Source: an uncultured Myxococcales bacterium (lineage in GTDB: Bacteria > Myxococcota_A > UBA9042 > DTJE01). Taken from it: 64,000 nucleotides of DNA. The stretch covers positions 1 to 64,000 of the forward strand of contig CAINDP010000137.1 in NCBI GenBank assembly GCA_903847405.1, read 5' to 3'. The translations under genes and the position numbers were made by a program. The notes beneath the pieces are model-generated. The model was not told the DNA's origin and did no database searches. It was given only the letters and a program-made list of their open reading frames with translations. Position 1 is the first letter of the stretch; every line of letters starts with the position of its first letter. This document shows positions 7,370 to 22,920 of the stretch, piece by piece.

Positions 7370-7437
7370 CGTTGCGCAGCCTCCCAGGCCCGTCCCGGTC
7401 GCGGGTGCAAACGTGGATGACATTCTGCCCTTTCCTT

Positions 7438-7463: not shown

Positions 7464-10400
7464 TCAGAGGGGGGGGATCGGGGTGCCGTCGAGGCAGGTG
7501 GCCGTCGTCATCCGCAGGTGGGAGCACCCGTTGTCCAGCCAGCATCCGTCGCTGGTGCAGGGGTTCCCGTCGTCGCAATCGGCGTCCGTCCGGCAGATCG
7601 CCCGCACGTCGTGATACTGGGCCCCCAGGCCCGTGAACAGCACGCCGAACGACACCGCTTCGAACACGCCGTCCCCGTTCACGTCCACGTCCGGCGTCAA
7701 CAGGTTCTGCAGCACGCTGCGCAGGAAGCCCTTCGTGTAGCCCTCGTACACTACGATGTCCTCGGGACCGGGGAACTGCACGTCCAGCAACAGCATCGCG
7801 TCGCTCATGCGGAACGCCCCGCCCGCCAGGCCGCCCGACTGGATGCCGACCACGTGCCCGGCGTCCCGGACCACCCGGACGTCCACGGCCACGTCGAAGA
7901 CCGGGATCGTCACCTGGGCGGTGCCCGTCCACGTCGACACTTCGAAGCCCTGCCCCGGGCCGCCGGCCGTCAGCCGATCGCCCACGATCACGGCATTGGC
8001 GAAGGACCACATCGGCTGGCAGGTCGCCCCGAAATTGAAGTACGGCAGGTCGAATTCGCAGGTCTGGGTCTGGAAGTCGCACACCCGATCCAGCACCACG
8101 TTGCCCAGGTAGAACGGCAGCCGGAAGGGCACGCCGTCGGCCTGGAACGCCCCGAAGTCGCCCAGGATCGTCCCCCAGGTGCTGCCGGCCAGAACCTGGT
8201 CGATGGCCGGGTTCAGGATGGAATTCGTCACGCTGAGCGCGTTGTCGATGCCGTCCGAGCACCCGGGCCCCGTGCCCCCGCCGTCCATCGCGGGCGCGCA
8301 GGTCAGCGTCCGACCGTCTACGTCCAGCCCCTGGCCCGGGAAGCCGCTGACGCCCAGCGACGCGTCGTTGATCGCCACCAGGTCCCCGACCGTCGCCAGA
8401 GGGCCGCAATCGGGGATCGTCCCCTGGCAGGTCCCCAGCAGGCACGTGTCGCCCAGGGTCAGCGGGTTTCCGTCGTCGCAGGCCACCGTCGTGCGGATGT
8501 GCGAGCACCCGTTGTCCGGCCAGCACCCGTCGGCTGTGCACGGGTTGCCGTCGTCGCAGTCGGCACTGGTGCTGCAGATCTCCCGCACGCCGTGCAGTTC
8601 GCCCCCCAGGCCCGTGAACAGCGCGCCGAACGACACGGCCTCGACGACGCCGTCCCCGTTCACGTCCACGTCCGGCGTCACCAGGTTCTGCAGCACGCTG
8701 CGCAGGAAGCCCTTCGTATAGCCCTCGTAGACCACGGTGTCCTCGGGGCCCGGGAACACGGTGTCCAGCAGGGCCATCGCGTCGCTCATGCGGAACGCGC
8801 CACCCGCCAGGCTGCCCGACTGGATGCCGACCACGTGCCCTGCCTGCCGCGTCACCCGGACGTCCACGACCACGTCGAAAACCGGGATTTCCACCTGCGC
8901 GCCGCCCACCCAGGTCGATACCACGAAGTCCTGCCCCGGGCCGCCGGCCGTCAGCCGATCGCCCACGATCACGGCGTTGCCGAACGACCACATCGGTTCG
9001 CACGTCGGGCCGAAGTTGAAGTACGGCAGGTCCCATTCGCAATTCTGGGTCTGGAAGTCGCACGCCCGATCCAGCACCACGTTGCCCATGTAGAACGGCA
9101 GCCGGAAGGGCACGCCGTCGGCCTGGAACGCCCCGAAGTCGCCCAGGATCGTCCCCCAGGTGCTGCCGGCCAGAACCTGGTCGATGGCCGGATTCAGGAT
9201 GGATTCCGTCACGCTCAGCGCGTTGTCGATGCCGTCCGAGCAACCCGGACCCGTCCCCGAACCGTTCAGCGCCGGCGCGCAGGTCAGCCCCTGCCCATCG
9301 ACGTCCAGCCCCTGGCCCGGGAAGCCGCTGACGCCCAGCGACGCGTCGTTGATCGCCACCAGGTCCCCGACCGTCACCAGCGCGCCGCAGCCCTGGATCG
9401 TTCCCTGGCAGGCACCCAGCACGCACGTGTCCCCGACGGTCAGCGGATTGCCGTCGTCGCAGGCCGCCGTCGTCCGGATGTGGGAGCACCCGTTGTCCAG
9501 CCAGCATCCGTCGGTGGTGCAGGGGTTGCCGTCGTCGCAATCGGCGCTGGTGCGGCAGATCGCCCGGACGTCGTGGTACAGCCCCCCCAGGCCCGTGAAC
9601 AGCGCACCGAACGACACGGCCTCGAAAATGCCGTCCCCGTTCACGTCCACGTCCGGCGTCACCACGTTCTGCAGCACGGTGCGCACGAAGCCCTTCGTGT
9701 AGCCCTCGAAGATCACGGTGTCCTCGGGGCCGGGGAACTGCGCGTCCAGAATCATCAGCGCGTCGCCGATCCGGAACGCCCCGCCCGCCAGGCTGCCCGT
9801 CCGGAACCCGACCACGCGCCCGGCCTCCCGGGTCACCTGGACGTCCACGACCACGTCGAAGATCGGGATCGTGACCTGGGCGTCCCCGATCCAGGTCGAT
9901 ACCCGGAAGGTCTGCCCCGGGCCGCCGGCCGTCAGCCGGTCACCCACGATCACGGCGTTGTCGAACGACCACATCGGTTCGCACGTCGGACTGAAGTTGA
10001 AGTACGGCAGGTCCCATTCGCAGTTCTGGGTCTGGTAGTCGCACACCCGGTCCAGGACCACGTTGCCCAGGTAGAACGGCAGCCGGAAGGGCACGCCGTC
10101 GGCCTGGAACGCCTGGAAATCGCCCAGGATCGTCCCCCAGGTGCTGCCGGTCAGGATCTGGTCGATCGCCGGGTTCACGATCAGGTTCGTGACGCTCAGC
10201 GCGTTGTCGATGCCGTCCGAGCACCCCGGGGCCATGCCCGAACCGTCCAGCGCCGGCGCGCAGGTCGCCCCGTCGCCATCGACGTCCAGCCCCTGGCCCG
10301 GGAAGCCGCTGACGCCCAGCGACGCGTCGTTGATCGCCACCAGATCCCCGATCGCGACCCGTGCGCCGCAGTCCGGGATCGACCCGACGCAGGCCCCCGC

Positions 10401-13400
10401 CATGCACGTGTCGCTGACGGTCGCCGGGTCGCCATCGTCACAGCGGTCGGAGTTGAACGTCCGCGTGCAGCCGGCCTCGGGCAGGCACGTGTCGGTCGTG
10501 CAGGGGTTTCCATCCTCGCAGTCCGCCACCGCCGCGCACGGCGTGCCGACGTCCACGATCACGCCGCGTCCCGCCTGGACCCGCAGGCCGAAGGAAACGG
10601 CGTCGGGCGTCCCGTCCCCGTCGGTGTCGACGTCCGGGGCGACCAGGTTCTGCAGCACGTTGCGCACGAAGCCCTTGGTGTAGGTCGCGTAGACGATCGT
10701 GTCCTCGGGACCCGGGAAGGCCGCGTCCAGCAGGGCCAGGGCCTCGTCCACCCGGATCGCGCCCGCGGCCAGGCTGCCCGGCAGCATCCCCGTGACGTGC
10801 CCGCCGGTGATGGCCAACCGCGCGCTGACCTGGGTCCCGTGGACCGTGGCAGACACGCCGTAGCGCGTGGGCACCGTGAAGGCGTACCCTGCACCGCCCG
10901 CCGTCAGCAGGTCGCCGACGATCGTGGCATTATCCCAGAAGTACAGGGGCTTGCACTGTCCGTCGAAATCCTCCCGGGGCAGGACGTAGTCGCAGGTTTC
11001 CGTCTTCGGGTCGCAGCCGGGCGTGGTCGGGCCCACCTCGGCCATGTACAGGGGCAGCACGAACCGGCTGCCGTCGAAGGTGGCATTCCGGAAGTCGCCC
11101 AGGACGCTGCCCTGGGTGAAGCCCGCCAGCAGGTCGGCCGCCACCGGGCTCAGCAGGGTTTCCAGCACGGACAGTTCGTTGTCGATGCCGTCGCTGCACC
11201 ACGGCGTCACGCCCAGGCCGCTTTCGACCGGCGCGCAGGTCGCCCCGTCGCCGTCGACGTCCAGGCCCTGGCCCGGGAAGCCGCTGGCGCCCAGGGTCAC
11301 GTCGGTCAGTGCGACCACGTCGCCGAAGTCGACGTACGGGGCGCAGTCCTCGGCCGTGCCGGCGCAGGTGCGGGCCGCGCACGTGTCGTTCAGTGTGTAG
11401 GCCAGGCCGTCGTCGCAGGCCGCGCCGTCGTCCCAGCACAGGGCCCCGTCGTGGCAGGCGCCCTGGTCGGTGGCGCCGTCGCAGTCGTCATCGACGCCGT
11501 TGCACGTGGCGTCGGTCGCCGCCGGAAGGCCCGGCCGGCAGGCGGTTTCAGTCCCGCCGACGCACGTCGACGGCGAGTTGCCCGCAAGGCACGCGCCCAC
11601 GCCGCACGCCGCGTCGGGAACGTAGCCCTCGTCGGTCGCGCCGCTGCAATCGTCGTCCACGCCGTTGCAGGTGGCGTCGGTCGCCGCTGGAAGGCCCGGA
11701 CGGCACGCGGTTTCGGTCCCGCCGGCGCACGTCGACGGCGTATTGCCCGTGTTGCACGCACCCACGCCGCACGTCGCGTCGGGGGCATAGTCCTCGTCGG
11801 TCGCGCCGTTGCAGTCGTCGTCGATGCCGTTGCACGAGGCGTCCGTGGCCGCGGGCAGGCCCGCCTGGCACGCCGCCTCGACGCCGTTCACGCAGGCGGA
11901 AACCGACGCGCACGCCCCGGTCCCGCAAGCCGCCGGGACGTACCCGTCGTCGGTCGCGCCGTTGCAGTCGTCGTCCATGCCGTTGCACGTGGTGTCGGTC
12001 GCCAGGCACCCGCTGGCGTCGAAGGTGACCAGCGGCTTGAACGTGGCGGCCGCGTCCAGCAGCGGCGTTTCCAGGAAGGCCGTGGCGTTCACCACCGCCC
12101 CGCCCGCGTTCAGCACGTCCAGGATCACGACCACGCCGATGCCCGGCTCGGCCGTGGTGAGCCCCGAGACCTGGGTGGTCCACACGCCGCCACCGACGTG
12201 CGCCGCTTCCGTCAGCACGCCGTTGGCGGTGCCCGACCGGGCCCCCGTGAACGCGATCGTCCCCGCGTTCAGGACCGTGGCCACCTCGTAGCGCACGCGG
12301 ATGCCCGCCGTCACGTCCGTCTGGTCCCGGTCCACGACGTGGGTCCGCAGCAGCACCTCGCCCGTCCGGATGGGGTCTGGAACCGCCTGGACGTCCACGA
12401 AATGCGACAGGCGCGCCAGGACCTGCGACGCATAGAAGGCGTCGTTGACCATGACGGTGCCGTCGGGGAACAGATCGCTCTGGGCCTGCTGGGTCGGGTT
12501 CGGCACCACCAGCGGCGGAACGACCGTGATCTGCTGGATGAACAGGATGTCGGCAATCGAGAACTCGTTGTCGTCGTTCGCATCGCCGAACAGGCCGCTG
12601 GAGTCGGGATCCAGGTCGCCGGCGCCCGCCACGATGTTACGGGGCACCGCACCGCCGATCGCGACGCCGGTCCGGTCGATGAACCCGCGGATCACGCCGC
12701 CCATGGCGCTGATTCGCGGACCACCGGCGCTCTTGATGGCCTTGAAGCGCAGGACCGCCACCTCGATCGCAGCGCCGGACACTCCGGCCCCGGCGATCGG
12801 CGGCGAGGCATTCAGGTAGATGCGGCCGGGCTCGGACACGTTGGCCGCAAACAGGGCCCCCGGGATGCCCGACCCGACGCGGGCGCTGTCGGCCAGGAGG
12901 ACGGACGGGTCGTAGGTGATCTCCAGGTCGATGCCGCCCAGCGTCCGGCTGCCGCTGTTCACGCGGACCGGCATGTCGAAGTACTCGTCGCCGGTGCGGT
13001 CCGGGAACGCGAGGCCGGTGCTGTTGCCCAGGTCGACGTCGCCCACGTCGGGCAGGAGGTTCACGGCCAGGGACAGGGGCTTCGGGGGGTCGTACAGCGT
13101 CCCCGTATCGACGATCGGATCCACGTCCACCGTCATCGTCACCGGACCGTTGCCCCGGGCGGTGGCCACTCCCGTGGCCGCGACCGTGGCGTACTGTACG
13201 GCGCTGCTTGCAAAGCGCAGCAGGCCCGGGATCAGTTCGCCGCCCGTGAGGATGTTGTGCGTGCCGTCGGCGAAGCGCCCGACGACGGCCAGCGTCGCCT
13301 GGCCCACGTCCTTGATGCCCAGGAAGGTGGTGCCCGCCGCGTAGGTCAGGGTCAGGTCCGCCAGGTCCTGCTTGGCAGGGTCGACCGCCATCTGCAGCGG

Positions 13401-16400
13401 CGGGCTGCCATGGCCCGAGTTCCGGGCGACCACGTCCACCAGGCCGTCGGACACGCCGCGGACCACCGCCGAGGCGTCGATGGACAGGACCCCGGCAATC
13501 GGGGTCGACGTCCCCCGGACGTACACGCTGAAGGTCGTCTGCGGATGGGCCGTCACGTCCAGGGAGGACCCGTCCGTGAACCGGTTCCGCACCTCCAGGC
13601 GCGAGCGCTGGCGGACGCCGGAGTTCTCGATGAAGGACAGGACGCGCTCGACCACGCGGGTCGTGGACGCAGGCGTGTGCAGCTCCCACGACTCCACGGT
13701 CAGGCCCTGGTGGGTCACGACCTGCAGCTCGACCGTGGCGGACACGGCCTCCAGGTAGGTCCCCGGGAACGAAATGCCGATCGAGGCGCGGCCGGCGCCG
13801 GTCCCCGTGGCGTGGGCCGTGCCGGGAACGCAGCCGGTGACGCCGGCGCACGACGCCGCGTCGTCCACGGACAGCAGGTCCGCCGGGTCCAGGGCGACCG
13901 CGTCGTAGCGCGTCCGGGGGTCGGCGGTGAAATCCTTCGAGGTCCCGTCCTCGAAATGCACGCGAACCGTGATCGGGCGGCTGGACGGCAGGCCCAGCAG
14001 GGTGGCCGCGACGTCCGCGTCGCTCAAGGCGACCCGCGGGTCCGTGACCGTGGCGTCCACCCCGATCGGCTTCGGCAGCAGCACCTTGAAGGTGCCGCTC
14101 CCCGAGGCGATCGGAGCGCCGCCCGCGTCCTCGAAGGACGCCGTCAGGTCCGTCCGGCCCCCGCCGATCGCGGTGACGACGCCGCCCGCGTCGACGCTGC
14201 CGATCAGCGCGTCGCCGGTGGAATAGCGCGTCGTCGGCGCGGCGGTGACGTCAACGCGGCTGCCGCCCGCGGTGGCCGCGTCATCCGACAGGACCAGCAA
14301 CGCCGCCGCCTGCGCGGTGCGCCCTTCGGCCGTGAACAGGTTCGTCACCCGGGCCTGGACCGTCAGGGTGCCGGTCCGATCGGGTACGGGATTCGGTTCC
14401 GCCTGGTCCACCAGGACGGTCGCGGGCACCAGCACGCGCATCCCCGTGACATGCGTCAGGGCCGCGGCATCGACGACCACCGGGGCTGCGCCCAGGACCG
14501 CGTCACCCTCGCCCAGGACCTGGATCTGCGCCGCACCGTCGGCGACCGGCGTCGCCAGCCCCGTCGCCGCGTCCACGGACAGGATGCCCGGGGCCGACGA
14601 CGCAAAGCGCACCCGCGACGTGACGTCCATCGTGAAGGGCGCGAAGGACCCGCCCGCGAACGACGCGCGGACCTCGGTCCGCGCCTGCTGGTCGCGATCC
14701 AGTTCGACGATGTGCCCCAGCGTCGGGTCCGAAACCCGGACGTCCAGCGGCAGCCCGGTCGCCAGCACCCACAGGTTCGTCGTTCCCGACACCGCGCCCA
14801 CGGAGGCCGTGATCGGCGTGAACCCGCCGCCCGTCGCCGCGATCGCGCACCCGGTGGCCGAGGCCACTCCGCCGTCGGTGGGGGCACAGGTCGTTCCCGG
14901 ACTGGCGCGCACGTCGGCAATCGCCCCGTCGGACTGCACCGCCAGGACCGCCACCGCCGTCGAAGTCGGCACGCCGTCGAACGGACGCGTGTGCAGCAGC
15001 ACGTTGTCGTCCATCCGGGCGAACACGCCGCGGGTCGCGACGTTCTTGACCCGCACGACGCCCGAGTCGCCCGGACCGTCGCCGTCCCGGACCAGGATCA
15101 CCGGGTTGGCCAGGAACGACACGCCCGCGCCGACGGTGTTGTACAAGCCCAGGGCCGCGCCCGACACGTTCGCGGCGGTCCCAGCGGCGACGCCCGTGCG
15201 AACCCGGAAGTGCGCGACCGCCACCTGGACCCGCGCGCCCCGGGCGGTCGTGCCCGTCGGGTTCGCGTTGATGGCGTTGAACGACAGGCTGCCCAGGGTG
15301 TTGGCCGTGGTCGCGGCGTTGCTGACCGGCGGGGCCAGGTCCGTGGCGGCGCCCTGGCCGACGGACAGGACCTCCAGGACGGCCGGGTCGAAGTCGATCC
15401 GGAGGTCGTACGAACCGATGGTGTTGGCGCCCGTGTTCACGTAGACCGGGACGTCGATCAGCGAGTTGTCGAAGCGGGGACCCAGCGGCAGTTCCAGGCC
15501 CAGTTCCCCGGGTTCGGTGACCAGGGCGGACGGGTTCTTCCGCACCGCGATCGCCACCGACGACGACGAAACGCCGTCGCAGTCGGCGACCAGGGACGCC
15601 ACGCCGCCGACCGCGAAGGCCGCGGTCGGGACGGTCAGGGTGGCCGAGAACACGCCCCCTCCGGCGGGGGTTGCGGTCGCGGTGACCGTCGTCGCGCCGG
15701 TCGTCCGGAACGTGACCGTCCGCGTGGACGCCACCGGGCTGCCGATGCCGTCCGTGACGAACGCGTATACCTTCACCCGGCTGTCGTCGCTGAAGACCTC
15801 GTCGCGGCTGGAGATCGCCCGCACGGTGGCCGTTTCCACGGGGCTCGTCGCGAACGCCCGGTCCGTCGATGCGTTCCCGCCCGCCAGGGCGCGCACCGTC
15901 CCGGAAAGGCCGGGATTCGTCAGGTCCACCACGGCGGCGCCGTAGGTCCCGTCGCCGTTGTCCGTCACGATGCCCGAGGGCGTGCCCAGCGTGCTGCCGA
16001 ACACGACCTTCGCACCCGCGACCGGGCTCCCGATCTGGTCGCAGGGCGGGTCCGAATCCTCGTCGGTCGTCCCGTCGCAGTCGTCGTCCACGCCGTCGCA
16101 CGTGGCGTCGGTGGGCGCGGCGATCCCGGGCACGCACGCCGTTTCGCCCCCGCCCTGGCAGGACGAGGGAACGTTGCGCGTCCGGCAGGCGCCCACGCCG
16201 CAGGTGGCGTCGGGGACGTAGCCCTGGTCGGTCACGCCGTCGCAGTCGTCGTCCACGCCGTCGCACGTGGCATCCGTCGTCGCCCCGGAGGGCGGCAGGC
16301 AGGCCGCTTCGACACCGCCCGCGCAGGCCGAGGGAACGCCCCCCAGGCCGCAGGCGGCCAGGCAGGACGCGTTCGGCACGTAGTCGTCGTCGGTCGCGCC

Positions 16401-17801
16401 GTCGCAGTCGTCATCGACCCCGTCGCACGTCGCGTCGGTGGCCGCAGGCACGGGCGGCGTGCAGGCCGTCACGTGGCCGCCCGCGCAGACCGAGGCGGAC
16501 CCGCCGAATCCGCACGCGCCCTGGAGGCACGTCGTGACCGGCACGTAGTCCTCGTCCGTCGTCCCCTCGCAGTCGTTGTCGACACCGTCGCAGGTGGCGT
16601 CGCTGGCCGCGGCGATCCCGGGCTGGCAGGGGGTCTCGTGGCCGCTCACGCAGAACGACGGAAGGGCCGACCGGGCGCACGCCCCCAGGCCGCAGGACGT
16701 GACGGGCACGTAGTCCTCGTCCGCCTTCCCGCTACAGTCGTCGTCGATGCCGTCGCACGTGGCGTCGGTTGCAGCCGCCGCCCCGGGCTGGCACGGGGTC
16801 ACAACGCCACCCACGCACGAGGAGGGCGTCGGCGCCACGCCGCACTGCCCCACGCCGCAGGCCGTGACGGGCACGTAGTCCTCGTCCGTCGTCCCGTTGC
16901 AGTCGTCGTCGATGCCGTTGCAGGTGGCGTCGCCGGCTGCCGCCGTCCCGGGCCTGCAGGCCGTTTCGACCCCGGCCACGCAGGACGACGGGACCGCGTT
17001 GGTCGCGCACGCTCCCACGCCGCATCCCGCCACGACCACGTAGTCCTCGTCCGCCGCCCCGCTGCAGTCGTCGTCGGTCCCGTCGCAGGTGGCGTCGCCG
17101 GCCGCCGCGGTCCCGGCCTTGCACGGGGTTTCCACGCCCCCAACGCACGTCGAGGCGGTCCCGCCCAGGCCGCAGGCGCCGACCAGGCAGGCCCCGTCCC
17201 GGACGTATTCCTCGTCCGTCGACCCGTCGCAATCGTCGTCGATCCCGTCGCAGGTGGCGTCCGTCGTCGCCGCGGGCTGGTCCTGGCATCCCAGGACCGC
17301 CACGCACTTTTCCTTGCCGTTGCAGAGGTTGTCGTCATCGCACAGGGAGTCGTCGGGGGTGGAAACGCATCCGTCCACCGGGTCGCATCGGTCCACCGTG
17401 CAGGCAACCTTGTCGTCGCAGTCCACCGGCGTGCCCGTGCAGGTCCCCGCCACGCAGTGATCCCCCACGGTGCAGCCGTCGCCGTCGTTGCACAGGACCT
17501 CGGAGGCCACCGGGAACGCCGAGCACCGGCCGGTTTCGTCGTTGCAGCGCCCCGTCATGCACGGTCCCTGCGTTTCCTTCGCCCAGGTGTCGCATGCGTC
17601 GGTCGGGAAGCCCGGCCCACACTGGGCCTGATCCGCGTCGGGGGCGGTGTCGGCCGTCACCACGTCGCCGATGAAGTCCGTCAGGGGCAGGTCGCCGGGG
17701 CCCTGGTCCGGGCCGGTCCACTGGAATTTGCCGCCGCCCTGGCAGGCCTGGACCAGCAAGGTTCCGAACAGCAGGACCAGGCGCTTCGACGAACGTGTCA
17801 T
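7464..17801 (-). CDS. 3445-aa modular lipoprotein: MopE-like repeats, cohesin- and dockerin-like domains, four tandem PGQGLDVD modules
   Basis: The signal peptide ends in a lipobox-like LLVQAC. Cys-rich segments follow, then eight MopE-like repeats of ~51 aa (about residues 180-590; ATCDGIDDDCDG plus a CGVGAC half). The middle (590-1930) looks like Ig/Big-type beta domains. It includes two cohesin-like domains (about 754-907 and 1580-1724, with VPVYVNTGANTIGSYDLRI in the first). A dockerin-like pair of F-hand loops follows the second one (GDANDDNEFSIADILFIQQ, then DLFPDGTVMVNDAFYASQVL). Four further MopE-like repeats (1930-2120) precede four tandem modules of 325-327 aa reaching the C-terminus, each with FPGQGLDVDG, CSDGIDNALS, FPGPED and TPDVDVNGDG. 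I chose ATG 17801, preceded by GGGGAG; a TTG lies five codons upstream. The role is unknown; a surface or matrix scaffold is inferred. Confidence 0.87.
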   Translation of the reverse strand: MTRSSKRLVLLFGTLLVQACQGGGKFQWTGPDQGPGDLPLTDFIGDVVTADTAPDADQAQCGPGFPTDACDTWAKETQGPCMTGRCNDETGRCSAFPVASEVLCNDGDGCTVGDHCVAGTCTGTPVDCDDKVACTVDRCDPVDGCVSTPDDSLCDDDNLCNGKEKCVAVLGCQDQPAATTDATCDGIDDDCDGSTDEEYVRDGACLVGACGLGGTASTCVGGVETPCKAGTAAAGDATCDGTDDDCSGAADEDYVVVAGCGVGACATNAVPSSCVAGVETACRPGTAAAGDATCNGIDDDCNGTTDEDYVPVTACGVGQCGVAPTPSSCVGGVVTPCQPGAAAATDATCDGIDDDCSGKADEDYVPVTSCGLGACARSALPSFCVSGHETPCQPGIAAASDATCDGVDNDCEGTTDEDYVPVTTCLQGACGFGGSASVCAGGHVTACTPPVPAATDATCDGVDDDCDGATDDDYVPNASCLAACGLGGVPSACAGGVEAACLPPSGATTDATCDGVDDDCDGVTDQGYVPDATCGVGACRTRNVPSSCQGGGETACVPGIAAPTDATCDGVDDDCDGTTDEDSDPPCDQIGSPVAGAKVVFGSTLGTPSGIVTDNGDGTYGAAVVDLTNPGLSGTVRALAGGNASTDRAFATSPVETATVRAISSRDEVFSDDSRVKVYAFVTDGIGSPVASTRTVTFRTTGATTVTATATPAGGGVFSATLTVPTAAFAVGGVASLVADCDGVSSSSVAIAVRKNPSALVTEPGELGLELPLGPRFDNSLIDVPVYVNTGANTIGSYDLRIDFDPAVLEVLSVGQGAATDLAPPVSNAATTANTLGSLSFNAINANPTGTTARGARVQVAVAHFRVRTGVAAGTAANVSGAALGLYNTVGAGVSFLANPVILVRDGDGPGDSGVVRVKNVATRGVFARMDDNVLLHTRPFDGVPTSTAVAVLAVQSDGAIADVRASPGTTCAPTDGGVASATGCAIAATGGGFTPITASVGAVSGTTNLWVLATGLPLDVRVSDPTLGHIVELDRDQQARTEVRASFAGGSFAPFTMDVTSRVRFASSAPGILSVDAATGLATPVADGAAQIQVLGEGDAVLGAAPVVVDAAALTHVTGMRVLVPATVLVDQAEPNPVPDRTGTLTVQARVTNLFTAEGRTAQAAALLVLSDDAATAGGSRVDVTAAPTTRYSTGDALIGSVDAGGVVTAIGGGRTDLTASFEDAGGAPIASGSGTFKVLLPKPIGVDATVTDPRVALSDADVAATLLGLPSSRPITVRVHFEDGTSKDFTADPRTRYDAVALDPADLLSVDDAASCAGVTGCVPGTAHATGTGAGRASIGISFPGTYLEAVSATVELQVVTHQGLTVESWELHTPASTTRVVERVLSFIENSGVRQRSRLEVRNRFTDGSSLDVTAHPQTTFSVYVRGTSTPIAGVLSIDASAVVRGVSDGLVDVVARNSGHGSPPLQMAVDPAKQDLADLTLTYAAGTTFLGIKDVGQATLAVVGRFADGTHNILTGGELIPGLLRFASSAVQYATVAATGVATARGNGPVTMTVDVDPIVDTGTLYDPPKPLSLAVNLLPDVGDVDLGNSTGLAFPDRTGDEYFDMPVRVNSGSRTLGGIDLEITYDPSVLLADSARVGSGIPGALFAANVSEPGRIYLNASPPIAGAGVSGAAIEVAVLRFKAIKSAGGPRISAMGGVIRGFIDRTGVAIGGAVPRNIVAGAGDLDPDSSGLFGDANDDNEFSIADILFIQQITVVPPLVVPNPTQQAQSDLFPDGTVMVNDAFYASQVLARLSHFVDVQAVPDPIRTGEVLLRTHVVDRDQTDVTAGIRVRYEVATVLNAGTIAFTGARSGTANGVLTEAAHVGGGVWTTQVSGLTTAEPGIGVVVILDVLNAGGAVVNATAFLETPLLDAAATFKPLVTFDASGCLATDTTCNGMDDDCNGATDDGYVPAACGTGACASVSACVNGVEAACQAGLPAATDASCNGIDDDCNGATDEDYAPDATCGVGACNTGNTPSTCAGGTETACRPGLPAATDATCNGVDDDCSGATDEGYVPDAACGVGACLAGNSPSTCVGGTETACRPGLPAATDATCNGVDDDCDGATDQGACHDGALCWDDGAACDDGLAYTLNDTCAARTCAGTAEDCAPYVDFGDVVALTDVTLGASGFPGQGLDVDGDGATCAPVESGLGVTPWCSDGIDNELSVLETLLSPVAADLLAGFTQGSVLGDFRNATFDGSRFVLPLYMAEVGPTTPGCDPKTETCDYVLPREDFDGQCKPLYFWDNATIVGDLLTAGGAGYAFTVPTRYGVSATVHGTQVSARLAITGGHVTGMLPGSLAAGAIRVDEALALLDAAFPGPEDTIVYATYTKGFVRNVLQNLVAPDVDTDGDGTPDAVSFGLRVQAGRGVIVDVGTPCAAVADCEDGNPCTTDTCLPEAGCTRTFNSDRCDDGDPATVSDTCMAGACVGSIPDCGARVAIGDLVAINDASLGVSGFPGQGLDVDGDGATCAPALDGSGMAPGCSDGIDNALSVTNLIVNPAIDQILTGSTWGTILGDFQAFQADGVPFRLPFYLGNVVLDRVCDYQTQNCEWDLPYFNFSPTCEPMWSFDNAVIVGDRLTAGGPGQTFRVSTWIGDAQVTIPIFDVVVDVQVTREAGRVVGFRTGSLAGGAFRIGDALMILDAQFPGPEDTVIFEGYTKGFVRTVLQNVVTPDVDVNGDGIFEAVSFGALFTGLGGLYHDVRAICRTSADCDDGNPCTTDGCWLDNGCSHIRTTAACDDGNPLTVGDTCVLGACQGTIQGCGALVTVGDLVAINDASLGVSGFPGQGLDVDGQGLTCAPALNGSGTGPGCSDGIDNALSVTESILNPAIDQVLAGSTWGTILGDFGAFQADGVPFRLPFYMGNVVLDRACDFQTQNCEWDLPYFNFGPTCEPMWSFGNAVIVGDRLTAGGPGQDFVVSTWVGGAQVEIPVFDVVVDVRVTRQAGHVVGIQSGSLAGGAFRMSDAMALLDTVFPGPEDTVVYEGYTKGFLRSVLQNLVTPDVDVNGDGVVEAVSFGALFTGLGGELHGVREICSTSADCDDGNPCTADGCWPDNGCSHIRTTVACDDGNPLTLGDTCLLGTCQGTIPDCGPLATVGDLVAINDASLGVSGFPGQGLDVDGRTLTCAPAMDGGGTGPGCSDGIDNALSVTNSILNPAIDQVLAGSTWGTILGDFGAFQADGVPFRLPFYLGNVVLDRVCDFQTQTCEFDLPYFNFGATCQPMWSFANAVIVGDRLTAGGPGQGFEVSTWTGTAQVTIPVFDVAVDVRVVRDAGHVVGIQSGGLAGGAFRMSDAMLLLDVQFPGPEDIVVYEGYTKGFLRSVLQNLLTPDVDVNGDGVFEAVSFGVLFTGLGAQYHDVRAICRTDADCDDGNPCTSDGCWLDNGCSHLRMTTATCLDGTPIPPL
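7590..11350 (-). repeat. four-unit in-frame tandem repeat of ~981 nt inside the 3445-aa gene
   Basis: The same landmark (the Leu-Ala/Gly-Gln part of PGQGLDVDG, read on the plus strand as CTGGCCCGGG) recurs at 8331, 9312, 10293 and 11268. The spacings are 981, 981 and 975 nt, all whole numbers of codons. The three C-terminal units are strongly alike at nucleotide level over long runs; the first unit (11350-10430) is more diverged. The linker between units carries a Cys-rich CDDGNPCTxDGCW segment. Confidence 0.9.
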
Positions 17802-17972
17802 CCGGACTCCCCGCAATCGCAGTGGCGATCCCTTGCCGCCATGTCGCCAAATGGGCGCGGCACACTAGAGGATCGCGCATGTAGCATCCGCGACCGCCCC
17901 TACCACGTCAAGAAATGGCTTCAGACCGCCACGAATCCGGGATCCTGCCGATGCGGGTTGGCGTCGCCTGGG

Positions 17973-18185
17973 TCAGGCAGCCTTCTTGTTCGGGCAGGTG
18001 CTGAACCCGAAGACCGTGTACAGGGGGCACGTCCCGATCAGGCCCGTCGTGATCGGGATCAGGCCGATGTAGCCCCACGGCGTTTCCGGACCGACGAAGG
18101 CCAGGGAAAGGATCCCGATGCCCGCCAGGACCCGGACGATGCGCTCGGCGACATGGACGTTCCGGGGCAGCAGTTTTTCGATCAT
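17973..18185 (-). CDS. DUF2892 (YgaP-like) small inner-membrane protein
   Basis: The 70-aa product has an N-terminal amphipathic stretch, two hydrophobic helices (about residues 17-33 and 38-52) and a short tail with two Cys (TGLIGTCPLYTVFGFSTCP). The GTCPLY...STC pattern and length fit DUF2892, the membrane part of YgaP, which in E. coli is fused to a rhodanese; no rhodanese is attached here. The ATG is preceded by GGAGG with a 5-nt gap. It is transcribed divergently from thioredoxin and the two share a 137-nt promoter region, which suggests a link to sulfur or redox handling (inference). Confidence 0.85.
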   Translation of the reverse strand: MIEKLLPRNVHVAERIVRVLAGIGILSLAFVGPETPWGYIGLIPITTGLIGTCPLYTVFGFSTCPNKKAA

Positions 18186-18227
18186 GAGGACCTCCTTCAG
18201 GCAAGGACCTTCCCCGCCGTGGCTTTC

Positions 18228-18255
18228 AATCTACGCACGATTCGTACTTTGGAAA
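18228..18255 (-). promoter_or_regulatory. candidate promoter for the DUF2892 gene
   Basis: On the minus strand TTTCCA (18255-18250) is followed after 16 nt by TAGATT (18233-18228). Both boxes are partial matches; the position, 43 nt before the start and back to back with the trxA promoter, supports it. Confidence 0.35.
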
Positions 18256-18260
18256 GGCTC

Positions 18261-18289
18261 TTGACACAGGGACTTGCCGTCCATATATT
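18261..18289 (+). promoter_or_regulatory. strong sigma-70 promoter of the trxA operon
   Basis: A consensus TTGACA (18261-18266) is followed after exactly 17 nt by TATATT (18284-18289), 33 nt before the trxA ATG. It lies in an AT-rich island that stands out from the surrounding GC-rich DNA and is the best promoter match I found in the window. Confidence 0.8.
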
Positions 18290-18322
18290 TCTTTCGCGAC
18301 ATATTCCTGGACGGAGGTTCCC

Positions 18323-18688
18323 ATGAAATCCCTGGTGCTTCAGGTCACCGACGCGACATTCGAGCGGGAAGTCGTAGACTCCGAAATCCCGGTGTTCGTG
18401 GACTTCTGGGCGCCGTGGTGCGGCCCCTGCAAGGCCGTGGCGCCGCTGATCGAGGAACTGGCGGCCGAGTACCAGGGCCGCATCAAGTTCACGAAACTGG
18501 ACACCGAGTCCAGCCCCGGCGTCCCCGGCCAGATGGGCATCCGGTCGATCCCCACCCTGGTGGTCTTCAAGGGCCCGGACGTGGCGGAAGTGAAGGTCGG
18601 CGCCGGCTCCCGGGAGGACCTGCGGGCGATGCTCGACCGCTCCCTGGGCATCAAGAAGCCGGGCCTTTTTGCAAAGCTGTTCGGGTAG
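18323..18688 (+). CDS. trxA: thioredoxin
   Basis: The 121-aa protein has the thioredoxin fold signature FVDFWAPWCGPCK (active site WCGPC near residues 34-38) and the cis-Pro segment RSIPTLVVFK. There is no signal peptide, so it acts in the cytoplasm as a protein-disulfide reductase. The tail beyond the normal ~105 residues (KKPGLFAKLFG) is slightly long. GGAGG with a 5-nt gap precedes the ATG. It is the first gene of an apparent operon with a 61-aa protein, a methyltransferase and an Mrp-type ATPase, which suggests a role dedicated to that pathway beyond general housekeeping (inference). Confidence 0.95.
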   Translation: MKSLVLQVTDATFEREVVDSEIPVFVDFWAPWCGPCKAVAPLIEELAAEYQGRIKFTKLDTESSPGVPGQMGIRSIPTLVVFKGPDVAEVKVGAGSREDLRAMLDRSLGIKKPGLFAKLFG

Positions 18689-18707
18689 ACCACCCGCGGA
18701 GGCGAAC

Positions 18708-18893
18708 ATGTCCTTGACCGTCCTGACACAGCCCCTGACCGCCGCGGTCCTGCCGCTGCCGGCGGGAACCCAGGAAAAATCCCCGCCGCTTCCCGGAGCG
18801 GACCGTCTGCCGCCCCCTGTCCTGCCGTCGGCGCCGGCGCTGGACCGGCGGCGCTTCCTGCGGACCCCCGCACGGCCACCCGTCCGGGAATGA
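18708..18893 (+). CDS. 61-aa Pro-rich protein of unknown function in the trxA operon
   Basis: I do not recognise this protein. It starts MSLTVLTQPL and is rich in Pro and Leu, with RRRFLR near the C-terminus and no Cys. Support for it being real comes from context: GGAGG lies 5 nt before the ATG (18698-18702), the same spacing used by its operon neighbours. It also fills the 237-nt gap between trxA and the methyltransferase, and its stop is 32 nt before the next start. The frame could be a fortuitous GC-rich opening, so I rate it below its neighbours. Confidence 0.55.
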   Translation: MSLTVLTQPLTAAVLPLPAGTQEKSPPLPGADRLPPPVLPSAPALDRRRFLRTPARPPVRE

Positions 18894-18925
18894 CGTCCCC
18901 GGGCCTGGACACAACGGAGGACACG

Positions 18926-19534
18926 ATGGGCCATCACGATCACCCCCACAAGTTCGACCCGGCGAACGCCGCGCGTCTGGACGACCCGCTCCGTCGCGAG
19001 GCCATGCCCCCGGCAAGGCTCGCTGCGGCCCTGGCGTTGCAGCCGGGCGACCGCGTCGCCGACATCGGCAGCGGCGCCGGGTACTGGCTGATTTCCCTGC
19101 TGGACGCGTCGCCCGACGGGGTCGTGTTCCAGGGGGTGGACAGCGAACCCGCCATGCTGGCGGTGCTGGAGGAACGGCTGCGGAACCACCCGCGGCGGGC
19201 GGACGTCACGCTGACCCGCTCGACCGAGCACGCGGTCCCCCTGGCCGACGGCTCGGTGGACGTCGTGGTGATGGGCGCCGTGTACCACGAACTGGCCGAT
19301 CGTCCCGGATTCCTGCGCGAGGTCCGGCGGCTTCTGTCGCCCGGCGGCCGCCTCGCGGTCATCGACTGGGACGCCCTGCCTCCCGGCGTCGAACGCACGA
19401 TGGGCCCGCCCACCGACGAGAGGGTGCCGTTCGCGACGGCGCTGGAGGAGATAGGCGCGGCCGCCTTCACCGGGGCCGCGCCGATCGACGGTTTCCGCGA
19501 ATCGTACTGCCTGGTGGCCCGCAAGGCCGCGTGA
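18926..19534 (+). CDS. class I SAM-dependent methyltransferase with His-rich N-terminus
   Basis: The 202-aa product has motif I VADIGSGAGYW, an acidic ribose-binding region (GVDSEPAML) and the later DVVVMGAVYHELAD and LSPGGRLAVIDW motifs of Methyltransf_11/25 proteins. The N-terminus MGHHDHPHKFDP is His-rich and may bind a metal. The substrate is unknown. A start 36 nt upstream (18890) would overlap the previous stop as ATGA, but GGAGG 5 nt before 18926 favours the shorter form. Location between trxA and mrp suggests a thiol, metalloid or Fe-S-linked substrate, but that is inference only. Confidence 0.88.
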   Translation: MGHHDHPHKFDPANAARLDDPLRREAMPPARLAAALALQPGDRVADIGSGAGYWLISLLDASPDGVVFQGVDSEPAMLAVLEERLRNHPRRADVTLTRSTEHAVPLADGSVDVVVMGAVYHELADRPGFLREVRRLLSPGGRLAVIDWDALPPGVERTMGPPTDERVPFATALEEIGAAAFTGAAPIDGFRESYCLVARKAA

Positions 19535-19549
19535 CGCGAGGAGGACACC

Positions 19550-20467
19550 ATGGGTTGCGGGTGCGGCGGCGGGGACGGCGGATGTGGCGGCGGTGGCGGC
19601 GGGCTGGAGCGTGAACGCGAGGACGCGCAGCCGGACGGTCGCGCCCGGGCCGCGATGCGCCGGATCCCCCACAAGATCCTGGTCATGAGCGGGAAGGGGG
19701 GCGTCGGCAAGACCACGGTCGCGGTCAACCTTGCCTACGCCTTCGCGGCACGCGGCTTCCAGGTGGGGATCGTCGATGCGGACCTCCACGGGCCGGACGT
19801 GCCGCTGATGACCGGGCTCCAGGGGATGCAGGGCGATGCCGAGGGGGATGCGCTGCAGCCGCTCCAGGCGGCGCCGGGAGTCCGCGTGCTGTCGGTGTCC
19901 GGGTACCTGCCGTCCGCCGACGCCCCGGTGATCTGGCGCGGTCCCGCGAAGGCCCAGGTGCTGGCGCAGTTCCTGGGCCAGGCGGACTGGACCGGAACCG
20001 ACGTCCTGGTGGTCGACTGTCCCCCGGGCACCGGCGACGAGCCGTTGTCGGTGGCGCAGATGATCCCGGATGCCGACGGGGTCGTGATCGTCACGTCGCC
20101 CCAGGGCGTGTCGCTGCTGGATTCCCGGAAGTGCGTCGGGTTCGCGCTGCAGATGGGCCAGATGGTCCTGGGCATCGTCGAGAACTTTTCGGGGTTCGCC
20201 TGCCCCGGGTGCGCACGGCGCATCGACCTGTTCAAGCGGGGGGGCGGGGAGCAGGCGGCCGAGCAACTGGGCGTGCCCTTCCTGGGGCGGATCCCGATCA
20301 CGGAGGCGATGGTCGAGGCCGGGGACTCCGGCAAGCCGCTGGTGGCCTCGGAGCCCGAGGATCCGGCCGCCCAGGCCCTGGTTGCCATCGCGGCGGCCAT
20401 CGCCTCGGGATGGGTACCGGGCGAGGGCGCCGTCAGGGCGGCCGCTACTCCGTCGGACCCGGCATAG
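19550..20467 (+). CDS. Mrp/ApbC/NBP35-type P-loop ATPase, Fe-S cluster carrier
   Basis: The 305-aa protein carries the deviant Walker A MSGKGGVGKTTVAVNLA (near residue 46), IVDADLHGPDVP, and DCPPGTGDEPLSV, all standard for Mrp family ATPases that assemble and deliver Fe-S clusters. The C-terminal ACPGCARR supplies the CxxC that bridges the cluster in the dimer. A short Cys/Gly-rich N-terminus (MGCGCGGGDGGCGGGG) adds three more Cys, as in NBP35-like forms. AGGAGG with a 5-nt gap precedes the ATG, 15 nt after the methyltransferase stop. Its 3' end overlaps the convergent histidine kinase gene by 23 bp. Confidence 0.92.
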   Translation: MGCGCGGGDGGCGGGGGGLEREREDAQPDGRARAAMRRIPHKILVMSGKGGVGKTTVAVNLAYAFAARGFQVGIVDADLHGPDVPLMTGLQGMQGDAEGDALQPLQAAPGVRVLSVSGYLPSADAPVIWRGPAKAQVLAQFLGQADWTGTDVLVVDCPPGTGDEPLSVAQMIPDADGVVIVTSPQGVSLLDSRKCVGFALQMGQMVLGIVENFSGFACPGCARRIDLFKRGGGEQAAEQLGVPFLGRIPITEAMVEAGDSGKPLVASEPEDPAAQALVAIAAAIASGWVPGEGAVRAAATPSDPA

Positions 20468-22844
20468 GGGCGTCCAGCGCCTCGCGAACCTGGCGGGTCA
20501 GGTCGATCACCGAAAACGGCTTCTGCAGGAACCGCACTCCCGGCTCCAGCACCCCGTGCTGCACGATCACGTCGTCCGTGTACCCCGACATGAACAGGAC
20601 GCGGAGGCCGGGCTGACGCTTCGAAAGGCGCTGGTACAGCTCCCGCCCGTTGGCGCCCGGCAGGATCACGTCGCTGACCAGCAGGTGCAACCGGCCCGGA
20701 TGGGCGGCGGCAAGGGCCTCCGCGCTTTCGACGTCGCCGGCCTCGATCACCCTGTAGCCATGGGATTCCAGGATTCGACGGGCCAGCCCGCGCACGCTGG
20801 GCTCGTCCTCGACCAGCAGCAGCGTTTCGCCCCCCCCCTCGGGAGGCGGCGGCGCGCTGGGGGTTTCAGCCCGGCTCGCCGAGGACTGGACCCGCGGAAG
20901 GTAGACGCGGAAGGTGGTCCCGTGGCCCAGCGTGCTGTCCACGCAGAGGTGGCCGCCGTGCTGCTTCACGATCCCGTAACTGGTGGCCAGGCCCAGGCCC
21001 GTCCCTCGCCCCGTCCGCTTCGTGGTGAAGAAGGGCTCGAAGACGCGGGCCAGCGTGTCGGCGTCCATGCCGTGGCCCGTGTCGGTGACCTCCAGCACGG
21101 CCCAGGCGCCCGGCGCAACGCCCGGATGGCGCGGATCGTCGCCGCCCAGCGTGACCCGGTCGGTGTGGATGTGGAGCCGCCCGCCCAGGGACATGGCGTC
21201 CTGGCCATTCATCACCAGGTTCACCAGCACCTGGTCCACCTGGGAGGGATCGGCCAGCACGTCCAGCGCCCCTGCATCCAGATCGATCGTCAGGGCCAGA
21301 TCCTCGCGGATCAGGCGCTGCAGCATCGGCGCCACCCCGCTGACCAGCCCGTTGAGGTCCACGACCTTCGTCTGCAGCATCTGGCGCCTGCCGAAGGCCA
21401 GCAACTGGCTGGTCAGGTCCTTGCCGCGCACCCCGGCCGACCGGATCTGCTCCAGCGCCGGCCGCAGGGCGTCCCCCTCCGGCAGACCCAGCAGCAGCAG
21501 GTCCGAAAAGCCGATGATCGGCGTCAACAGGTTGTTGAAGTCGTGGGCCACGCCGCCCGCGAGCCGCCCGATCGACTCCAGGCGGTGGGCCTCCCGCAAC
21601 TGTTCCTCCAGCCGCGCCTGTTCGGCTTCGGCACGCTTGCGGTCGGAAATGTCACGCAGCATGGACACGAAGCGCGGCGGCCCCCCGTCCGGGTCCACCA
21701 GCAGCCGCGTGCTCATCGAACACGGCACGGCGTGCCCGTCCCTGTGCCGGATCCGCACCTCGAAATCGTCCACGTGGCCGTCCGTGCCCAGCCGACGCAC
21801 GATCTCTTCCCGGGCGCCGGGATCGACGTAGTTGTCGTGCGGCCGAAGGTGCCCGACGGCCTCCTCCCGCGTGAACCCGAACAGGCGTTCGATCGAGGGA
21901 CTGACCTCCAGGACGACCCCGTCGGGACCGGTCTCGACGTACACGTCGACGATGTTCTCGAAGATCCGCCGGTAGCGGGCTTCGTTGGTCGCCAGCAACT
22001 GCATCGAGCGTTTGCGCTCCGACACGTCGCGGGCCACGACCGCGATGCGGGCCGTCGTCGCCCCGGTGTCCTCGGGCGACAGGGCGAACGCCGAATACTC
22101 GACGTCAATCGCCTGGCCGGTCCGGAAATGCCGCAGCCGGGCCTCGCCCGTCAGAAACCCCGGGTCGCGCAACGCCGGCAGCAGGCGCGCCGCGACGTTC
22201 TGACGCGAGTCCTCGTCGAGGTAGTCGCTGATCGGCCGCCCCACGGCCTCGGCCGGTTCGGTCAGGCCGACCATCTCCCGCCCCGCCGGGTTGAGATAGT
22301 CGACCCTGCCGTCCAGGGTCCCGATGCTGACGAATTCCTTGCTGTTTTCGACCAGGGCCAGGAAGGTGGCATAGCCGGCCTGGGCGTGCTTCCAGTCCTC
22401 GATGTCGCGGGTGACGGACAGGACGTAGGCCACGCCGCCCAGGTGGAAGATCCGGGCCGACAGCAACCCGGTGTGCTCACGGCCGTCCTTCAGGCGGAAG
22501 CGGGCCTCCAGGTTCGTCACGGCGCCCCCGGCCCGCAGGCCGTCGAGCAGCCGGATCCGATCGCCCGGATCGACCCAGATGCCGACCTCCAGCGTCGGAC
22601 GACCGATCACCTCGTCCCGGCGCCAGCCCGTCAGGGCAGTGAAGCCTTCGTTGGCGTCGATGTAGACGCCGTCGGACATCCGGTTGACGTTGATCGCATC
22701 CGGGCTGGTCTGGAAGGCGGCCCGGAAGATCGCCGCGGCCTCGGACGACTCGGCGCCCAGGACCGGTCCCGCGACGGCGCCGGCGACGGGCGCCCTTTCC
22801 GTTGGACCGTCCCGGGAAGGATCGTCTCCAGGACCATTGACCAT
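20445..22844 (-). CDS. hybrid sensor histidine kinase: three PAS domains, HisKA, HATPase, C-terminal receiver
   Basis: The 799-aa cytoplasmic protein has no obvious membrane segment. Three PAS domains occupy about residues 30-415 (AAFQTSPDAINVN, YATFLALVENSKEFVS, YRRIFENIVDVYV), the last ending in DISDRK. A HisKA domain follows with GGVAHDFNNLLTPI (phospho-acceptor His), then a HATPase with VLVNLVMNGQDAM and GTGLGLATSYG. The C-terminal receiver has LLLVEDEPSV, VSDVILPG (phospho-acceptor Asp) and FLQKPF. I chose ATG 22844, which has GGGAG 9 nt upstream, over an in-frame start 72 nt earlier. It follows a second hybrid kinase in the same direction; no free response regulator is adjacent. Confidence 0.92.
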   Translation of the reverse strand: MVNGPGDDPSRDGPTERAPVAGAVAGPVLGAESSEAAAIFRAAFQTSPDAINVNRMSDGVYIDANEGFTALTGWRRDEVIGRPTLEVGIWVDPGDRIRLLDGLRAGGAVTNLEARFRLKDGREHTGLLSARIFHLGGVAYVLSVTRDIEDWKHAQAGYATFLALVENSKEFVSIGTLDGRVDYLNPAGREMVGLTEPAEAVGRPISDYLDEDSRQNVAARLLPALRDPGFLTGEARLRHFRTGQAIDVEYSAFALSPEDTGATTARIAVVARDVSERKRSMQLLATNEARYRRIFENIVDVYVETGPDGVVLEVSPSIERLFGFTREEAVGHLRPHDNYVDPGAREEIVRRLGTDGHVDDFEVRIRHRDGHAVPCSMSTRLLVDPDGGPPRFVSMLRDISDRKRAEAEQARLEEQLREAHRLESIGRLAGGVAHDFNNLLTPIIGFSDLLLLGLPEGDALRPALEQIRSAGVRGKDLTSQLLAFGRRQMLQTKVVDLNGLVSGVAPMLQRLIREDLALTIDLDAGALDVLADPSQVDQVLVNLVMNGQDAMSLGGRLHIHTDRVTLGGDDPRHPGVAPGAWAVLEVTDTGHGMDADTLARVFEPFFTTKRTGRGTGLGLATSYGIVKQHGGHLCVDSTLGHGTTFRVYLPRVQSSASRAETPSAPPPPEGGGETLLLVEDEPSVRGLARRILESHGYRVIEAGDVESAEALAAAHPGRLHLLVSDVILPGANGRELYQRLSKRQPGLRVLFMSGYTDDVIVQHGVLEPGVRFLQKPFSVIDLTRQVREALDAPMPGPTE

Positions 22845-22920
22845 GCAACTTCTCCCGACCCGACCCGGCACGCGGGCCGACCACGAACGGGCAGGGGGCC
22901 CGCTCCGCCAGTGCACCCGC

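Follow-up and report, generated by a model that had tools for sequence, protein, structure and literature searches.

The window analyzed here is a stretch of 64,000 nucleotides (positions 1 to 64,000 of the forward strand of contig CAINDP010000137.1, assembly GCA_903847405.1) from an uncultured Myxococcales bacterium. At positions 17973-20467, genes for a thioredoxin (trx), a class I S-adenosylmethionine (SAM) methyltransferase (MT) and an Mrp-type ATPase (mrp) run divergently from a gene for a DUF2892 membrane protein. Judging from synteny and an operator-like site, this locus is probably one operon of a lineage-specific thiol-stress regulon that is repressed by an ArsR-family protein. The trx-MT-mrp genes were placed in this family-specific regulon because their promoter keeps the putative site of an ArsR-like repressor that is encoded there in sister genomes. 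In those genomes the repressor gene lies between DUF2892 and trx; it is missing from the window locus, and this part of the system is thus invisible from the window sequence alone. The features of the locus are as follows.

17973-18185, minus strand: DUF2892/YgaP-like transmembrane (TM) protein of 70 aa with the GTCPLYTVFGFSTCP motif, divergent from trx (PF11127, 65.9 bits)
18261-18289, plus strand: sigma-70-type promoter TTGACA-17-TATATT for trx (11/12 consensus; aligned with relatives)
18285-18304, strand unspecified: candidate ArsR-type operator dyad ATAT-N2-C-N6-G-N2-ATAT over the -10 box
18323-18688, plus strand: thioredoxin with WCGPC and the C-terminal tail LGIKKPGLFAKLFG (TIGR01068, 107.8 bits vs. 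a cut-off of 96.8)
18708-18893, plus strand: 61-codon open reading frame (ORF), probably not a conserved gene (family match absent)
18926-19534, plus strand: class I SAM MT of the HKFDP...LDDP...GPP family (Methyltransf_11, 59 bits)
19550-20467, plus strand: Mrp/NBP35-type P-loop ATPase, a predicted Fe-S carrier, with N-terminal Cys3/5/12 and CPGC (PF10609, 287 bits vs. a cut-off of 27.1)

The four family matches confirmed the genes that an earlier, sequence-only reading of the locus had named: DUF2892 divergent from a thioredoxin, a methyltransferase and an Mrp ATPase. An alternative start for MT at 18890 was judged less likely than 18926. The 3' end of mrp overlaps the end of a convergent sensor-kinase gene (20445-22916, minus strand), and the operon therefore most likely ends at mrp.

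Conserved gene order and the operator-like dyad

The comparison covered 14 genomes of the order, including two others of the window's genus; the window's own genome (G000) comprises 5.65 Mb. On contig 149 of genome G113 (C149), the gene order is CcdA (-), DUF2892 (-), arsR (+), trx (+) and MT (+), and on contig 131 (C131) DUF2892 is divergent from arsR-MT. Contig 63 of G031 carries arsR, trx, MT and trx2. The DUF2892 orthologues in the same divergent position are 80% (C149) and 88% (C131) identical to the window copy. The window trx shares 74-75% identity with its orthologues at the sister loci and 68-77% with those thioredoxins of relatives whose genes are linked to arsR, and MT is 76% (G031) and 68% (G113) identical to full-length orthologues adjacent to trx. 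Because only 137 bp separates DUF2892 from trx in the window, there is no room for arsR; given the sister loci that carry the gene, we infer that it was lost here rather than never present.

The Mrp of G113 is encoded away from the trx-MT locus, no close Mrp homologue was found in G031, and trx was not present at the Mrp loci L001-L005; mrp adjoins trx or MT solely in the window's genome. The conserved core was therefore taken to be DUF2892 // (arsR)-trx-MT, with mrp as an addition here, and the four-gene set was ruled out as a conserved unit. One compact four-gene system, as first proposed, is accordingly unsupported, since the linkage of mrp is unique to this genome and the 61-codon ORF is unsupported as a gene. 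The same reading had held that neighbors not conserved together elsewhere would speak against a system; this is the case for mrp and the ORF and is not so for DUF2892 // trx-MT.

The promoter matches the consensus at 11/12 positions (0.2 such sites expected in shuffles) and was the sole one of its kind found in the region; it could be aligned, and is kept, in four DUF2892-arsR/trx intergenic regions. The claim that four genes share one near-consensus promoter stood as regards the promoter, while the count became three genes plus an unsupported ORF. A block, CTTGAC...ATATTNC-N6-GACATATT, is common to the 137-bp region of the window and the regions upstream of the sisters' arsR. It reads as the 20-bp dyad listed above, which overlaps the -10 box.

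The exact dyad occurs three times in the window's own genome (about 0.04-0.15 expected), in each case at a promoter of thiol-redox genes: at the window site, at C153:40853 before DUF2892-CcdA, and at C153:52128 before the gene for a flavoprotein resembling sulfide:quinone reductase (SQR). The latter product aligns with the A. aeolicus SQR at E 1.3e-28 and has counterparts of its Cys124 and Cys347, without Cys156. Four exact dyads were located in G113 (three at arsR, one at a Trx-Grx gene), three in G031 (at arsR, trx2 and DUF2892-CcdA), two in G117 (at arsR and the adjoining thioredoxin-type genes) and one at arsR/Trx-Grx in G175; further single copies were present in G011, G036 and G175:C194. 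A reversed-pattern control yielded 0 sites across 12 genomes. Looser sites in the window's genome precede trx2 (C153:36330; 2 mismatches), a trx-ArsM-peptide-radical SAM operon (C107:20521; 2 mismatches) and the arsR homologue on contig C184.

The region C153:36000-67000 has the appearance of a sulfur/thiol island. It holds a PAS-sigma54 activator gene divergent from a short Mrp, together with CcdA, DUF2892, Trx-Grx, YeeE/YedE, multihaem cytochromes, a full-length MrpORP-like protein, the SQR-like flavoprotein, and rhodanese-like, DsbA-like and Lgt-like genes.

The ArsR subfamily linked to thioredoxin genes

Thioredoxin-type genes (trx, Trx-Grx, Trx-like, trxB) come next after most copies of this ArsR subfamily. 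The gene order is arsR and then directly trx in G031, G113:C149, G113:C80, G117, G040 and G011, and related copies in G079, G110 and G175 adjoin Trx-like, Trx-Grx or trxB genes. The subfamily was present in 8/14 genomes of the order. In a search of 284 genomes of the phylum, close members were found solely in the window's family and in one other genome of the class; 297 genomes of the phylum to which locus L002 belongs gave nothing close, with a single weak match. In an alignment of eight ArsR sequences of the family, Cys65 and Cys71 (which flank the wing) and Cys103 (near the C-terminus) are invariant; a more distant homologue in G079 is without Cys71. A conserved protein of ca. 120 aa containing VCGRMGPMCIPVYG is encoded beside arsR, Trx-Grx or trxB genes (L103:8488-8853, L102:289-741, L145:2932-3291 and L146:1836-2195); the one copy searched (L103) had no Pfam/NCBIfam match.

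Several observations weigh against an ArsR-repressed regulon that includes the window operon. The arsR gene is lacking at the window locus, and the genome's only close homologue, at the end of contig C184, is ca. 60% identical to the trx-linked ArsRs. (In its last 61 bases that contig, L100, carries an almost perfect inverted repeat, GGAAAATGGGGACAGACACCGATTATTCG..., which is likely to be a repeat element at which the assembly broke off.) One ArsR copy, G113:C159, adjoins Rieske/cytochrome b genes rather than a thioredoxin gene. The operator motif was first recognized in an alignment that included the window site, and seven exact dyads occur in G106, which belongs to the same order but has no copy of this ArsR; the motif by itself therefore does not decide the matter. 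The restriction of the mrp adjacency to a single genome points the same way. This last fact, and the variation of the gene set among sister genomes, would also suit a chance grouping, in which a housekeeping-like thioredoxin operon gained MT and mrp without a common function. Such a history is improbable, however, given that the DUF2892 // trx-MT synteny is maintained at 68-80% protein identity, that the promoter is kept in relatives and that the dyad is rare.

The methyltransferase, the Mrp ATPase and the 61-codon ORF

By sequence, the nearest solved relative of MT is the Aquifex aeolicus SAM methyltransferase of PDB entry 3dh0 (E 9e-23), which was also the best match to the predicted fold (pLDDT 91; TM 0.79-0.81). 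The two share the HKFDP...LDDP N-terminus and the HEL and GPP motifs as well as the fold (TM about 0.8); 3dh0 is a structural-genomics entry without a named function, and the comparison with it covered sequence and fold. Close relatives of MT keep HKF, DPxR, the SAM motif, HEL and GPP. The His-rich MGHHDHPHKFDP, noted in the sequence-only reading, is thus partly a family feature, HKFDP...LDDP being common to 3dh0. No conserved cysteine, such as the arsenite-binding Cys of ArsM, was present in the MT alignment. Assignment as ArsM was rejected on this ground and on a score of 52 bits vs. a cut-off of 263 on model NF008823; scores for DVU_1556 and CpaM were far under the cut-offs of their models. 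The more distant relatives of MT across the phylum (L019, L020, L026, L030, L041 and others) bear N-terminal extensions that are long, rich in His and signal- or lipoprotein-like; this would be odd for SAM enzymes if these are exported.

At G113:C80 and at C107 of the window's genome, the slot after trx is occupied by an ArsM-like protein with cysteines in LSCGG, SNCTIN and AECWAG. Because an ArsM-like protein fills this same position, a small soft nucleophile is at most a reasonable guess for the acceptor of the window MT. These clusters resemble the window operon in having the same regulator or a near-operator (C107 is without arsR), a homologous trx and a methyltransferase right after it; they differ in that their methyltransferase is ArsM-like, with As-binding Cys, and has genes for a Cys-rich peptide and a radical SAM maturase after it. 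Both operons (C107, L138:5592-7000; C80, L101:6255-8870) read trx, ArsM-like protein, 53-aa peptide and SPASM radical SAM enzyme, and the peptide ends in ...QCCAKTS(K/R)(V/A)TMGCHD. They look like a system for a ribosomally made peptide that is modified by a radical SAM enzyme, linked to an arsenite methyltransferase and, in the case of C107, also to a near-operator. A literature search on the combination of arsR, thioredoxin, arsM and radical SAM retrieved nothing relevant.

The window Mrp contains MSGKGGVGKTT, a deviant Walker A motif (GKGGxGK[ST]), and CPGC (CxxC) in its P-loop domain, as do MrpORP proteins. On the MrpORP model NF041136 it scored 319 bits vs. a cut-off of 450, with positions 1-249 of 365 matched. 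The C-terminal Di-Nase (dinitrogenase iron-molybdenum cofactor) domain was not found in the protein, which ends at 305 aa, and for this reason it was not filed as MrpORP. Three N-terminal cysteines (Cys3, 5 and 12) were counted in the window copy, four being the number in MrpORP. It is an Mrp/NBP35 protein, predicted from its sequence to be an Fe-S carrier, with a P-loop domain close to that of MrpORP. The extra N-terminal cysteines and the CxxC to which the sequence-only reading drew attention are present, and they are already known as traits of MrpORP-type proteins (PMC6345978). A precedent for an operon of Mrp and a methyltransferase is D. vulgaris DVU1847, a P-loop-only Mrp (PMC6345978). 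Relative to the Desulfovibrio MrpORP, the window protein differs in the missing Di-Nase domain and in its place in a trx-MT operon. Two more Mrp proteins of this type, one short and one full-length, are encoded on C153.

The 61-codon ORF was excluded from the system. Among 237-nt stretches of matched composition, 43-50% would contain an ORF of at least 61 codons by chance; the GC content by codon position (0.79/0.63/0.81) is only weakly gene-like, with codon bias below that of the neighboring genes; Pfam/NCBIfam-type searches of the product returned zero matches; and the trx-MT gap of relatives (17-76 nt) has no counterpart of it. The 61-aa protein that had been proposed is therefore unsupported as a gene.

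Elsewhere in the window, two giant surface-type proteins are predicted on the minus strand: one of 1437 aa with 11 MopE metal-binding repeats (3110-7423), and one of 3450 aa in which a cohesin domain is combined with MopE-like/cysteine-rich repeats (7464-17816).

Proposed function and related systems

In the proposed scheme, the C184 ArsR, or an orthologue whose gene falls in an assembly gap, would act in trans on trx-MT-mrp, repressing these genes by occupying the -10 box, and would release the operator once Cys65, Cys71 and Cys103 undergo modification or capture a thiophilic agent. The thioredoxin would then reduce oxidized or metalloid-loaded protein thiols and pass electrons to CcdA across the membrane, MT would methylate a small nucleophile and thereby remove it, and Mrp would re-deliver Fe-S clusters lost under thiol stress, with DUF2892 as a divergent membrane partner. 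The earlier guess that the locus handles a thiol, a metalloid or an Fe-S protein agrees with the putative ArsR-type operator and with a regulon of thioredoxins, CcdA, DUF2892 and the SQR-like protein (and trx-ArsM, at a weaker site). As the inducer, arsenite-type metalloids and reactive sulfur or disulfide stress appear about equally likely: the former are favored by the three-Cys site, the ArsM operon and the ArsC-like/ACR3-like genes of G040 and G011, and the latter by the SQR-like target, CcdA and DUF2892.

A system devoted to arsenic detoxification is rather doubtful. In it, ArsR would be a three-Cys As(III) sensor, trx the reductant for arsenate reduction or As methylation, and MT an enzyme that methylates As, Se or Te without the ArsM Cys. 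The three invariant cysteines fit such a sensor, wing cysteines act as As(III) ligands in ArArsR (PMC11868830), and a single-cysteine ArsM, TtArsM, is on record (PMC8649762). The trx-ArsM operon with its near-operator and arsR-trx-ArsM in G113:C80 are also as this would have it, as are the ArsC-like and ACR3-like (SBF family) genes that adjoin arsR-trx in G040 and G011. However, those ACR3-like genes have their own adjoining ArsR homologue, the window MT combines a low ArsM score with the lack of a conserved Cys, and SQR-like, CcdA and DUF2892 are non-arsenic genes. The efflux permease or arsenate reductase expected in an ars operon was not found among the window genes; ArsC-like and ACR3-like genes occur only close to the clusters of relatives.

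A reactive-sulfur response like those of SqrR, BigR and YgaV, with a repressor that senses persulfide or sulfide, an operon that handles sulfane sulfur and an MT that caps a thiol or sulfide, is likewise somewhat unlikely. The dyad does precede the SQR-like gene, DUF2892 is the membrane domain of YgaP (whose gene is repressed by YgaV; PMC9774250), and the C153 region holds CcdA, a YeeE/YedE transporter and a rhodanese-like gene. The 70-aa window protein consists of the TM domain PF11127 alone, and the rhodanese domain of YgaP was not found in it. Against this response, the first cysteine of the sensing pair is lacking in the ArsR subfamily, which scored 33 bits vs. a cut-off of 155 on the BigR model NF040642, and no relationship of the window MT to thiol methyltransferases was found. 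SqrR, BigR, YgaV and sHdrR (PMC9774250, PMC12423496) resemble the proposed ArsR-repressed regulon in the ArsR fold, in an operator over the promoter, and in regulons with a YgaP-type membrane protein, YeeE transporters and sulfur/thiol proteins. They differ in their operator (ATTC-N8-GAAT) and in their helix 2/helix 5 cysteine pair, which is not present in full in the relatives' ArsR.

The thiol-stress regulon proposed here also resembles RexT-trxA2 of Nostoc sp. PCC 7120, in which a thioredoxin gene is under the control of an ArsR/SmtB repressor (PMC8960804). In that study, arsR-trx co-occurrence was proposed to mark a disulfide redox sensor at the genome level, and the ArsR disulfide switch on thioredoxin was concluded to be essentially cyanobacterial (PMC8960804). 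The arsR gene adjoins trx in G031, G113 (two copies), G117, G040 and G011, and does not in the window. RexT uses the vicinal pair Cys40-Cys41 on helix 3, where the present alignment has no Cys; in the ArsR of the relatives the cysteines lie instead at the wing (Cys65/71) and close to the C-terminus (Cys103), and the operator of this protein precedes several operons. It is conceivable, and we put it forward tentatively, that this is a second, non-cyanobacterial ArsR invention for thioredoxin systems, built on the wing pair and Cys103 and governing a regulon of several operons, with a new kind of detoxifying MT without the As-binding Cys among its members.

Synteny and a rare operator-like dyad thus tie to thioredoxin genes, outside the cyanobacteria, an ArsR subfamily that carries other cysteines. 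Because of this link, the idea that ArsR proteins evolved repeatedly into thiol-redox regulators would become testable by gel-shift, and the widespread, uncharacterized 3dh0-like MT family gains a regulatory setting that allows a guess at its acceptor.

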